The position numbers and the translations under genes are program-made. DNA of 64,000 nt from Burkholderia sp. BCC0322 (lineage in GTDB: Bacteria; Pseudomonadota; Gammaproteobacteria; Burkholderiales; Burkholderiaceae): assembly GCF_902833045.1 (NCBI RefSeq), contig NZ_CADFDU010000016.1, positions 92,261 through 156,260 on the forward strand, written 5' to 3'. The notes under the pieces are model-generated. The model was not told where the DNA came from, did no database searches, and saw only the letters and a program-made list of their open reading frames with translations. This document shows positions 59,879 through 64,000 of the stretch, one piece after another; the stretch's first letter is position 1, and every line of letters starts with the position of its first letter.

Positions 59879-60061
59879 ATGAGCGAAGTAACCGAATACC
59901 AGAGCTGGGTCTGCCTGATTTGCGGGTGGGTCTACAACGAAGCGGAAGGGCTGCCCGACGAAGGCATCGCGCCCGGCACCCGTTTCGCCGACATTCCCGC
60001 CGACTGGCGCTGTCCGCTGTGCGATGTGGGCAAGGACGATTTTGTTGTCGTCGATTTCTGA
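59879..60061 (+). CDS. Rubredoxin
   Basis: 60 aa single-domain rubredoxin. The iron is held by CLIC and CPLC (residues 12-15 and 45-48), and the family features GWVYNEAEG, DEGIAPGTRF and PADWRCPLC are intact. A small electron carrier, often serving alkane hydroxylase or reducing oxygen species. No partner reductase gene is adjacent. It lies just before the tRNA gene that marks the island junction. Confidence 0.95.
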   Translation: MSEVTEYQSWVCLICGWVYNEAEGLPDEGIAPGTRFADIPADWRCPLCDVGKDDFVVVDF

Positions 60062-60152
60062 TTCGCTGATTCTTTGATTTTCCGGTCGCGGCCGATTGCG
60101 CGATCACACGCGTCGGCGTGCATTCCGCCCCGCCGACGCGCCGCGTGTTTGC

Positions 60153-60158
60153 TATACT
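60153..60158 (+). promoter_or_regulatory. -10 element of the tRNA-Arg gene
   Basis: TATACT about 60 bases upstream of the mature tRNA end. No good -35 was identified. Confidence 0.4.
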
Positions 60159-60217
60159 CTGCGCGCTGTCCACACCGCCGTCCGGTTCGCGTGTTTTGCG
60201 ATTACCCGGACATGGCT

Positions 60218-60292
60218 CTCCCCGTAGTTCAATGGATAGAACAAGCGCCTCCTAAGCGCTAGATACAGGTTCGATTCCTGTCGGGGGGACCA
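60218..60292 (+). tRNA. tRNA-Arg (anticodon CCU); integration site of the island
   Basis: 75 nt cloverleaf with encoded CCA. The acceptor stem pairs CTCCCCG (60218-60224) with CGGGGGG (60282-60288), discriminator A and CCA following. The anticodon loop is CTCCTAA between AGCGC and GCGCT arms, giving CCU for AGG codons. The T arm is ACAGG-TTCGATT-CCTGT. A tyrosine integrase gene begins about 170 bases downstream, so the 3' end of this gene is the probable attachment core, with the intact tRNA restored by the element. Confidence 0.93.
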
Positions 60293-60310
60293 AACAAGTT
60301 CCCATCGTCT

Positions 60311-60387
60311 CCCATGGTTACCCAAAAGGTCGCACACAGCCTTGTGTCGCCCGGACTTTCGCTGCCATCATTGCCCAAGGTTACCCA
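60311..60387 (+). repeat. Paired 14-bp repeats at the left end of the island (candidate integrase arm sites)
   Basis: CCCATGGTTACCCA (60311-60324) and CCCAAGGTTACCCA (60374-60387) differ at one base and start 63 bases apart, six helical turns. Between them is a small palindrome ACACA-GCCT-TGTGT. Such repeats beside the core are typical arm-type binding sites of tyrosine integrases. Confidence 0.45.
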
Positions 60388-60459
60388 CTACAAGCAACCT
60401 AACTTGGGGGCATCTTTTGGGACATGCCTCCATGCCCCCAAACTCGATGCCCCCACGCC

Positions 60460-61689
60460 ATGCCGAAGCGCGCTACTCCGCTGACCGAGATGCAGATCCG
60501 CAAGGCCAAGCCGGCCGACAAGCCCTACCGCCTAGCTGACGGCAAGGGCTTGTATCTCGAGGTCATGCCGAATGGATCAAGATACTGGCGGATGAAGTAT
60601 CGATTCGACGGCAAAGAGAACCGCGCCGCCTTCGGCGTCTATCCAGAGGTGACACTGGCTGAGGCTCGACAGGCCTGCCTCAATGCGCGGAAGCAACTGG
60701 CCGCCGGCACCGATCCCACCGAGCAGAAGCGGGAAGTTAAACGCACCCGGGCAATCGAAGCCGCGTCGACGTTTGAAGCCGTCGCGCGCGAGTGGTTTGT
60801 GACCCAGAAGGATGGCTGGACCGAAGTGTATGCCGGCAAAGTGATCAATTCGCTTGAGGTCGATGTTTTCCCCCGAATCGGCCACCGTCCGATCCGAGAC
60901 ATCGAGGCGCCCGACATGCTCGAGATCCTGAGAGCTGTCGAATCTCGCGGTGTGCGAGAGACAGCAAGGCGCATCCTCCAGCGCTCGCGGGCGGTGTTCC
61001 AGTACGGAATCATGACGGGGCGATGCCCTCGCAACCCCGCTGCCGACATCGACGCCGAGACTGTTCTCAAGAAAGGTAGTGGCGTCAAACACATGGCGCG
61101 GGTCAAGCCCGTTGAAATCCCGCAACTCATGAGAGACATCGCCGCGTACCAAGGCGATCTCGTCACGCGGCTGGCGCTCCGCTTCATGGCACTGACGTTC
61201 ACTCGAACAACCGAGATGATCAACGCGGAGTGGGATGAGTTCGACGAACGTGCCGCCGAGTGGCGGATTCCTCCCGAGCGGATGAAGATGCGCGACCCGC
61301 ACATTGTCCCGCTGTCGCGTCAGGCTCTCGACACATTGGCCGCCTTGCGTGAGCTGAACGGCGCCCACCGGCATGTGTTCTATAGCGTCCAAGGTCGAAG
61401 CCACATCTCGAACAACACCATGCTCTACGCGCTCTATCGCATGGGCTACAAGTCGCGAATGACCGGCCACGGATTCCGCGGCTTGGCCGCAACCGTGCTA
61501 AGGGAACTCGGTTACAGTCGAGACGTCGTCGATCGTCAGCTCGCGCATGCGGAACGCAATCAAGTCACTGCCGCATACGTGCACGCCGAATTCCTGCATG
61601 AGCGCCGAAAGATGATGCAGCACTGGGCAGATCACCTCGACGCCCTTGAGGCTGGCGCTTCGGTCATCCCGATCAACGTTGGGCGATAG
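60460..61689 (+). CDS. P4-type tyrosine recombinase (island integrase)
   Basis: 409 aa. The N-terminal DUF4102 arm-binding domain is MPKRATPLTEMQIRKAKP ... LYLEVMPNGSRYWRMKYRFDGKENRAAFGVYPEV. The catalytic domain has the first arginine in FTRTTEMINAEW, HGFRGLAATVL for the HxxR box, a histidine in QLAHAERN and the nucleophilic tyrosine in AAYVHAEF. All are present, so it should be active. ATG 60460 is preferred over an in-frame ATG at 60424. It points away from the tRNA gene, as usual for elements that integrate at tRNA 3' ends. Confidence 0.95.
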   Translation: MPKRATPLTEMQIRKAKPADKPYRLADGKGLYLEVMPNGSRYWRMKYRFDGKENRAAFGVYPEVTLAEARQACLNARKQLAAGTDPTEQKREVKRTRAIEAASTFEAVAREWFVTQKDGWTEVYAGKVINSLEVDVFPRIGHRPIRDIEAPDMLEILRAVESRGVRETARRILQRSRAVFQYGIMTGRCPRNPAADIDAETVLKKGSGVKHMARVKPVEIPQLMRDIAAYQGDLVTRLALRFMALTFTRTTEMINAEWDEFDERAAEWRIPPERMKMRDPHIVPLSRQALDTLAALRELNGAHRHVFYSVQGRSHISNNTMLYALYRMGYKSRMTGHGFRGLAATVLRELGYSRDVVDRQLAHAERNQVTAAYVHAEFLHERRKMMQHWADHLDALEAGASVIPINVGR

Positions 61690-61748
61690 CTAGGCTTAGG
61701 TGGAATGGAGCAAATCTGCACGAGGATATGAACATTCAGTGCGCTACT

Positions 61749-63197
61749 TCATGCCAAGAGCCCGGTTTCCCGAAATGCGTGCAGTACCTCGTGTGATTTG
61801 GGTCCATCGAACAACCATTGCTTAGTCTGTTCCATATCGACGCCAATCTCCTTTAGCAGCAGTGCATGGTACATGTACGCCACAGCCTCCGTTTTCATTG
61901 CTACATCCTTGACGAAGTCTTGATATTTCCCCTCGTGACGTTGACCTCCAAAGTGCGAAATATCGTTGCGGGCCTTAGCACACGCAGCACAAAAATTTTG
62001 CAAATTCACATCGAGAAAATCGAGCGGAAGCGCGCGGAACATCTCGAACAGTCGTTCCTGCAACGATGGCTCGCTTGCATTTTTAAGTCGGCCTTCAAGC
62101 CAACTACGATCACGTTTGTTAGCAACTTGCCCCAAGATGCGCTGAATCTTTTCCTGCAACTTCGGAGCAGGCGCGAAATTTCCTTCCTTACGACGATGGA
62201 GTGACTCAAGGCCCCAGATGAGATTCACAAACCGATGCTCGACATACAATTGCATACCACGGCGCGTACCAAGATACAGGTAGAAACCGGGCCCAAATTC
62301 GCTATGCTTTTGTCGCCAAGCATCGAATACCCTCCCGAAACTTTCTCGCAATTGAATAAAATTTGTCCAGCAGTCTCGCCACTCCGGCATCTCTGAAGAC
62401 CGACGCTGGCCGTAAAAGTACACGTCAAAAATACTACGATTGGCCTTTAAGCGCGGCCGCGCCAGCGAGTAATTTGAACCTGTAAGCAAGATGAACAAGT
62501 CCTGAACAAGTCGATACTCTTCGAGCATTTCGTCCAGCGAACGTTTCTGCTTGTACTTCACGCGAATGAACGCGCTCTCGACGAGTCGGAGCTCATGCGA
62601 TCGATGTACATGAGAACTCGGAAACGGCGCCAAGATGTCATAGCGCACTGACAGTGCACAATCACCGAGCTCATATAGACAAGGCTTCGGAAGACGATGT
62701 TTCGCGGCGACGCTTGATCTCGTTCGCTTCGTCTCAATACTGCCGAGTCTCAACCACCCCTCGAACCCGTCCATGTCGACGTCCATTGTGTCGAAAAGAA
62801 TCGGCTTCACGCCAAATGGTCTGGTCAACCGCGAGATCAAACAGTAGTCGGCTGCAAAGCCGTCGAATGAGACGCCGTTGCTGCTAAATCTCCCACCGCG
62901 TCGCCGCAAGCTAAGCAACAGTACGCATTTGTTGCTGTCTATGAGTCGCCCCTGGATAGTCCTGTCGGGAGGCAACTCCTGCGCTCCTGAAACTAGCACT
63001 GCCATGGGACCATGTTCGTTATCGAAGTAGTTGTCGAGCTTAAGCCGAATTCGCCCGCTCTCATCGATAGAAAGCGTACCCGTTATGGCTTCCGGCGGTG
63101 CAAAGTGATTGTCCGGCAGCGGTGTGTCGTTCCACCAGAAGTAGCCCCGCTCTTCGAGTATTTTTGTGGTCAAAATCAACTCTTCATTTGGTTTCAC
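61749..63197 (-). CDS. apeA: ApeA-like HEPN anti-phage protein
   Basis: 482 aa, starting at GTG 63197; an in-frame TAG four codons upstream limits extension. The N-terminal region has the ApeA-NTD pattern (GYFWWNDTP ... ITGTLSIDESGRIRLKLDNYF, then repeated beta-strand units). The C-terminal ~200 residues are helical and carry the HEPN ribonuclease motif R-x4-H in KARNDISHFGG (about residues 410-415). ApeA is a single-gene abortive-infection defence protein in which the HEPN domain cleaves RNA on phage sensing. Codon use is AT-richer than all neighbours, consistent with transfer. The integrase lies on the opposite strand, tail to tail. Confidence 0.75.
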   Translation of the reverse strand: MKPNEELILTTKILEERGYFWWNDTPLPDNHFAPPEAITGTLSIDESGRIRLKLDNYFDNEHGPMAVLVSGAQELPPDRTIQGRLIDSNKCVLLLSLRRRGGRFSSNGVSFDGFAADYCLISRLTRPFGVKPILFDTMDVDMDGFEGWLRLGSIETKRTRSSVAAKHRLPKPCLYELGDCALSVRYDILAPFPSSHVHRSHELRLVESAFIRVKYKQKRSLDEMLEEYRLVQDLFILLTGSNYSLARPRLKANRSIFDVYFYGQRRSSEMPEWRDCWTNFIQLRESFGRVFDAWRQKHSEFGPGFYLYLGTRRGMQLYVEHRFVNLIWGLESLHRRKEGNFAPAPKLQEKIQRILGQVANKRDRSWLEGRLKNASEPSLQERLFEMFRALPLDFLDVNLQNFCAACAKARNDISHFGGQRHEGKYQDFVKDVAMKTEAVAYMYHALLLKEIGVDMEQTKQWLFDGPKSHEVLHAFRETGLLA

Positions 63198-63225
63198 AAA
63201 GATCGTCTAAAAATACGAAACATCC

Positions 63226-63513
63226 CTAATCACGGACAGGCAGCTCAAAGAACATGATCCTGTCGGATCTAGGTTCAATCTGTTTTGCCCGCGGCATCTC
63301 CTCGATCATCAGTGAATCAATAACATCGTTTCCAAGCAATGCCGTCAAGACCGCGACAACGTAGTCGCTATACAAGCCGGCGACCTCGACGACCTCTTGC
63401 ACGACTAGCCCGAACGCTTTGCCGGCGTTCGCCTCCTCGGTAATCGAGGCCAGCCGATTTATCGCCGCCAGTTCCGATACGAAGATCAGGTTGTGACCAT
63501 GATTCTGCGACAT
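63226..63513 (-). CDS. Unknown protein upstream of apeA, possibly truncated
   Basis: 95 aa from ATG 63513 (HNLIFVSELAAINRLASITEEA ... VVAVLTALLGNDVIDSLMIEE ... DRIMFFELPV). I do not recognise it. It has a plausible helical core and no membrane segment or signal. It ends 28 bases before apeA on the same strand, so both could be one transcript. Its start falls at the edge of an IS3 transposase remnant on the other strand, so its true N-terminus and its promoter may have been lost. Base composition matches apeA rather than the chromosome. Confidence 0.45.
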   Translation of the reverse strand: MSQNHGHNLIFVSELAAINRLASITEEANAGKAFGLVVQEVVEVAGLYSDYVVAVLTALLGNDVIDSLMIEEMPRAKQIEPRSDRIMFFELPVRD

Positions 63514-63954
63514 GTACACGCGCGAGTGCCTGGTCATCGAGGTCGATACTTCGCTGCCGGGCTTACGAGTGCAGCAAGTGCTCGAGCAGCTCAAGGAGAT
63601 GCGAGGCTTACCCGCATCCATCACGGTCGACAACGGGCCGGAGTTCGCTGGTAAGGTGCTGGATGCATGGGCCTACGAAGCCGGTGTCACGCTGTCGTTC
63701 GTTCGGCCTGGCAAGCCGGTGGAGAATGCCTATATCGAGAGCTTCAACGGGCGGTTCCGCGATGAATGCCTGAACGAGCACTGGTTCGTCTCGATGCGCC
63801 ACGCCAAGCGGCTGATTGAGGAATGGCGTATCGAGTACAACACCGACCGCCTCATAGTTCGCTCGGCTATCTGACGCCTGCGCAGTTCACCCGGGCGCAC
63901 GACACGAAGCAGCAGTTTTTTGAGCGGCCCCCAGTAAACAGTGCCATGATGTAA
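63503..63954 (+). pseudogene. IS3-family transposase (OrfB) remnant, frameshifted
   Basis: Only the C-terminal part of the rve integrase core remains: YTRECLVIEVDTSLPGLRV, ITVDNGPEFAGKVLDAWAYE (second catalytic aspartate) and NAYIESFNGRFRDECLNEHW (catalytic glutamate). Upstream sequence is lost at about 63503. A one-base deletion near 63849 breaks the frame; the conserved ending (PHSSLGYLTPAQFTRAH) continues in the next frame to a stop at 63952-63954. The element cannot encode an active enzyme. Confidence 0.85.
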
Positions 63955-64000
63955 GCGAGTTTTCGGCGGACTTTTTCAGTATGAAAGGAGCCGTACGATG
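63951..64000 (+). mobile_element. Possible left end of another IS element
   Basis: A sequence beginning GTAAGCG is followed by a GGAG site (AAAGGAGCC) and ATG at the window edge (63998). IS66-family termini start GTAA-GCG and are followed closely by the first gene, so this may be such an end. Only 50 bases are visible. Confidence 0.25.

Follow-up and report, generated by a model that had tools for sequence, protein, structure and literature searches.

A probable stand-alone ApeA-type HEPN defence gene beside a tRNA-Arg integrase in Burkholderia sp. BCC0322

The ApeA protein described by Gao and colleagues in 2020 is reportedly a single-gene anti-phage protein of the HEPN type. Here, we explored a gene of this kind at positions 61749–63197, minus strand, of a 64,000-nucleotide stretch (the window) of Burkholderia sp. 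BCC0322 (contig NZ_CADFDU010000016.1). In the passages available from PMC7699616, ApeA is named a HEPN system and traced to that study (Gao et al. 2020). Those from a survey of HEPN proteins describe ApeA-NTD1 as a mostly β domain of about 300 amino acids (aa), with conserved aromatic residues and fused to the Apea HEPN domain; they also report that HEPN ribonucleases (RNases) carry E-x3-[KR] plus R-[polar]-x3-H (PMC3710099). Our findings favor a model, which we hold to be probable, where the window gene is a stand-alone abortive-infection gene of ApeA (Pfam) or PDC-S58 (PADLOC) type, encoding a latent HEPN RNase, acting without a partner and carried next to a tRNA-Arg integrase as cargo that can be exchanged. 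The gene and its parts are as follows.

61749–63197, minus strand: ApeA-type HEPN gene, 482 codons from GTG, with Pfam and PADLOC matches
62316–63152, minus strand: ApeA N-terminal domain 1, residues 16–294, presumed sensor (Pfam PF18862 and secondary structure of the model)
63132–63140, minus strand: FWW motif, residues 20–22
62193–62207, minus strand: E-x3-R motif, E331 to R335, without variation across the 15 subfamily rows (see below)
61953–61970, minus strand: R-x4-H motif RNDISH, R410 to H415
61827–62225, minus strand: HEPN domain, residues 325–457, presumed RNase (Pfam PF18739 and model of the C-terminal half)

The N-terminus matches ApeA_NTD1 (PF18862) at 2e-21 (77.1 bits against a curated cut-off of 25.5) and the C-terminus HEPN_Apea (PF18739) at 2.7e-13 (51 bits against 24.4); chance is excluded, because both scores far exceed their cut-offs. 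In PADLOC, the protein matches PDC-S58 end to end (5e-41; residues 14–462 on profile positions 4–440 of 461), and its C-terminus the Cas13-ApeA models (4.2e-21); scans against NCBIfam and PHROGs returned no match. The predicted model is β-rich in its N-terminal half and helical in its C-terminal half. When the latter was modelled alone, solved HEPN proteins were the top matches, with middling Z scores (best 7.3), as a HEPN helical-bundle fold would predict, and in the model RNDISH (model residues 399–404) closes a predicted helix (385–405). R410 and H415 are invariant in all 22 aligned ApeA-type proteins and, together with E331 and R335, they correspond to the motif pair given for HEPN RNases in the passages of PMC3710099. 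As the Pfam matches, PDC-S58, the predicted fold and the invariant R410 and H415 all point the same way, the ApeA/HEPN family reading of the gene is, as judged from sequence and model, right. The ApeA N-terminal domain with its FWW and the C-terminal HEPN R-x4-H motif had both been recognized in the first-pass annotation, and the profile search it proposed, like the structure prediction by which it could have been refuted, agrees with it.

Relatives are sparse. A single-protein scan of the genome contig set found none, none of the 61 genomes close to the window carried a match to the protein, and the PF18862 profile matched 3 of 65 genomes of the genus, one with a fragment only. That fragmentary ApeA N-terminal domain (L003:1207–1713), apparently decayed, lies near an ORF (open reading frame) named integrase-like by eye. 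In the plasmid set, tblastn retrieved 11 records, the best (41% over 96% of the query) from Methylocella tundrae, and a search of the genome contig set with a three-row alignment gave 10 loci. The nearest relative found is that of Trinickia dabaoshanensis (L015, 62% identity), followed by those of Pseudomonas gingeri, Pseudomonas sp. FEN and a Pandoraea metagenome-assembled genome (51–53%). A nine-member profile matched eight genomes among 398 from the same family, all labelled as other genera, and two among 369 taken from the class, each of these only in part. Such a sparse and patchy spread fits what one would expect of a mobile defence gene. For three close members, two from Pseudomonas and one from Pandoraea, the ratio of nonsynonymous to synonymous substitution rates (dN/dS) is about 0.29, 0.17 and 0.20; between the window copy and Trinickia, dS is saturated.

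Fifteen rows of the 22-row alignment form an FWW-bearing subfamily distinct from the seven other ApeA-type proteins; L019 and L086 carry genes 99.6% identical, which leaves 14 distinct members, from beta-, gamma- and alphaproteobacteria. FWW is found in 15 of 15 subfamily rows and 0 of 7 others, a constancy that is partly one of selection, given that one of the two search patterns yielding L012–L019 contained FWW; the five rows obtained by profile search (L085–L089) carry it too. In total, 48 positions are invariant in the subfamily, FWW 20–22, E331, H334, R335, N411 and D412 among them, and PDC-S58 was matched by nine of nine members. The alignment leaves out fragments (L003, L021), partial matches (L081, L082), an ORF called as its last 331 aa only (L020), the L005 gene in another record of the species (L006), the place of L019 (L010), short stretches at the places of L014, L015, L085, L086, L019, L087, L088 and L089 (L073–L080) and the remaining seven plasmid matches.

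No neighbour of the gene recurs across 15 loci, the window and 14 relatives, in a comparison (ORFs of at least 80 aa, blastp at 1e-5) that a smaller or unrelated-looking partner could escape. The similarities seen between loci are one 96% ORF common to L019 and L086, one 77% ORF common to L087 and L089, and weak 28% matches of L089 to L013. An earlier comparison, of the window and 12 relatives, likewise revealed no recurring neighbour, with flanks in common only between L010 and L019 (same place) and L005 and L020 (same species). Within this sample, the gene is solitary, without an obligatory partner; a more distant one could still exist, because the window has only 800 bases upstream of the gene, and L015/L084 and L017 lie close to contig ends.

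The preferred reading draws on what is seen here: the architecture, the RNase motifs, the predicted HEPN fold, the lack of a recurring neighbour and the variable slot described below. We infer for the protein RNase activity, dimerisation, autoinhibition and a phage trigger. The β-rich N-terminal domain would sense an infection product and hold the C-terminal HEPN domain silent; upon signal binding, a HEPN dimer would cut RNA via R410 and H415, aided by E331 and R335. RNA cutting would then halt translation, and the cell would stall or die before phage maturation, no partner protein being necessary. The gene itself would have been gained as exchangeable cargo beside the tRNA-Arg integrase. By analogy, short DNA fragments such as deoxydinucleotides appear the likeliest trigger, since the title of a 2026 preprint, cited in PMC13405049, names them as the activator of ApeA; if this applies to the FWW subfamily, the signal would be short DNA fragments from phage breakdown of host DNA. 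It is conceivable, though rather unlikely, that the FWW subfamily is instead a functionally separate ApeA class, its barrel-like N-terminal domain sensing another signal (e.g. a phage structural protein or a different nucleotide) through a pocket to which the FWW strand contributes.

Two further explanations, which we consider equally doubtful, were weighed against abortive infection. The first concerns the debris upstream of the gene.

63226–63516, minus strand: what remains (95 aa, 3' end) of a 244-aa gene; its identity to the C-terminal part of ORF L053:12479–13213 is 87%
63512–63874, plus strand: IS3-family transposase fragment (NCBIfam transpos_IS3)

The insertion sequence (IS) fragment scores 5.8e-29 (101.5 bits, short of the cut-off of 160), covers just profile positions 242–356 of 369, and is overlapped by a short ORF spanning 63226–63633, itself without Pfam or PADLOC match. 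Searched in 65 genomes of the genus, the 95-aa part of this ORF has one match, 87% identical, in genome G006, where it is the C-terminus of an open 244-aa ORF in an island at the same tRNA-Arg. DNA homology to G006 reaches window position 63516, ending where the IS3 fragment begins. The 244-aa gene has no Pfam match above cut-off; a stretch of it, RNGFAFH (R-x5-H), recalls the HEPN motif and is not within the 95 codons kept in the window. The ApeA-type gene might be a decaying, unexpressed copy of the same family, stranded beside IS debris. The truncated gene and IS3 fragment would fit such decay, as would the fragmentary N-terminus in another genome (L003), and no promoter-like site was found for the gene; yet the frame is open across all 482 codons and every conserved motif is present, making decay improbable. 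As for the start, the GTG at 63197 is uncertain: the position of codon 9, where relatives L012, L013 and L017 start, holds TTG in the window (63173), a fair alternative.

The second holds that the protein is a HEPN RNase with a non-phage role, in mobile-element addiction or in the exclusion of rival plasmids, and is bound up with the location of the gene.

60218–60292, plus strand: tRNA-Arg (CCT), presumed integration site (ARAGORN, Rfam RF00005)
60424–61689, plus strand: tyrosine integrase of the island (Pfam Phage_integrase, 1.4e-19)
61679–63214, no strand assigned: cargo segment without counterpart in G006 (blastn of the window against L053, flanks 85–87% identical)

The first-pass annotation had placed the gene in AT-richer DNA behind a tyrosine integrase on a tRNA-Arg island. 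Both points hold, the guanine-plus-cytosine fraction dropping from about 0.60 across the integrase (about 0.61–0.71 further left) to 0.50–0.54 across the gene; the far end of the island lies beyond position 64000, where the window stops. A 621-base query around the tRNA-Arg(CCT) found a match in all 65 genomes of the genus, not every match spanning the tRNA. The integrase DNA recurs in G074, G080 and G006 (86–89% identity) and in G065 (79%), adjoining the same tRNA in all four. Eight tRNA-Arg sites were taken and the ORFs behind the integrase read, some of these ORFs being scanned. In G006, a HepT-like gene (PF01934) adjoins the integrase, a weak PDC-S09 match (4e-6) was obtained, and an Abi_alpha gene (PF14337; PDC-S47) lies further in; in G074, an Mrr-type nuclease adjoins the integrase, with Septu PtuB (9.7e-85) about 4 kb in. 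The slot of G080 holds a helix-turn-helix gene without clear defence assignment, that of G065 an acyltransferase, and that of G016, its integrase broken, Abi_alpha and Mrr-type genes. G019, G084 and G088 have a partial or more distant integrase, and one G084 neighbour that was scanned had no Pfam match. Cargo behind the integrase thus varies (loci L053, L066, L067, L068 and L070, and window 60218–63214), and we interpret the slot as one whose cargo, often of a defence-like kind, is swapped.

The mobile location is what a non-phage role would lead one to expect, and so are the HepT and helix-turn-helix genes in the same slot of other genomes. However, addiction normally requires an antitoxin, yet no conserved neighbour was found, and several relatives adjoin phage-defence genes. 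In a chosen sample, which gives no enrichment count (six neighbouring proteins scanned by PADLOC, nine by Pfam), L016 adjoins AbiEi/AbiEii and L088 Druantia DruE, an Mrr-type nuclease lies near L084 and a UvrD/GajB-like helicase near L087, and the L005 plasmid stretch has annotated TIR-domain and HEPN/Toprim-associated genes. Two neighbours (L013:8963–10258, L084:5026–5460) had no Pfam match, and two at L018 had matches below cut-off only, one of them integrase-like. L085 adjoins a block of phage tail genes that ends in gpD, and at L085:4793–7483 the ApeA-type relative stands beside the gpD-type tail gene of a prophage; the gpD-side position in prophages often holds accessory genes. The Mrr-type nucleases of the G074 slot (L066:6311–7153) and near the Trinickia ApeA gene (L084:4232–5029) have visibly similar N-termini. 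Overall, we regard a non-phage role as unlikely.

Least credible, and in our view very nearly dismissed, is the variant two-gene system raised in the first-pass annotation, in which the gene would be the toxin half and the short ORF upstream of it would serve as antitoxin, chaperone or sensor: the two share a strand, with just 28 bases from the short ORF's stop to the GTG, but the short ORF is a C-terminal remnant whose homology stops at the IS3 fragment, G006 has the open 244-aa gene without detectable match to the window protein or to the PF18862 profile, and no relative of the short ORF occurs around the 14 other family members.

An ApeA-type gene is thereby confirmed in a genus of which just three out of 65 genomes were matched by the PF18862 profile. 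The compact, well-conserved subfamily is useful for studying N-terminal sensing by ApeA, and the tRNA-Arg integrase slot, with its genome-specific and often defence-like cargo, offers a general aid in finding such genes.

Compared with described systems, the window protein differs from the HEPN effectors Cas13 and Csm6 in having one HEPN domain per chain, and an Rfam scan of 60000–64000 found the tRNA only and no CRISPR-type RNA family. ApeA HEPN domains are called putative Cas13 ancestors in PMC7699616, and the passages available from a paper on Cas13an, in which the word ApeA does not appear, trace Cas13 to AbiD/F (PMC12165695); we make no claim on Cas13 ancestry for the window protein. HEPN toxins of the HepT/MntA type (8xeh, 7ae8, 6m6u) pair HepT with an MNT antitoxin, whereas the window gene has no partner and its protein a large β-rich N-terminal domain. 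We rejected a HepT-MntA type toxin-antitoxin, which calls for an adjacent antitoxin: the upstream ORF is a remnant and no neighbour is conserved. To PDC-S58, a PADLOC candidate single-gene defence family, the end-to-end match revealed no difference; we found one paper naming this family, the available passages of which list it for a Streptococcus thermophilus locus (PMC11514479). With ApeA, finally, the gene shares the fusion of the Pfam ApeA N-terminal domain to an Apea-like HEPN domain, and it too is solitary. It differs in belonging to the FWW-bearing subfamily, and the likeness is one of Pfam architecture rather than of alignment with the tested protein; blastn of the genes of two relatives against 20,395 Escherichia coli records gave no match. 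The window gene is, on this comparison, an ApeA-type member of a known family and not a new system.
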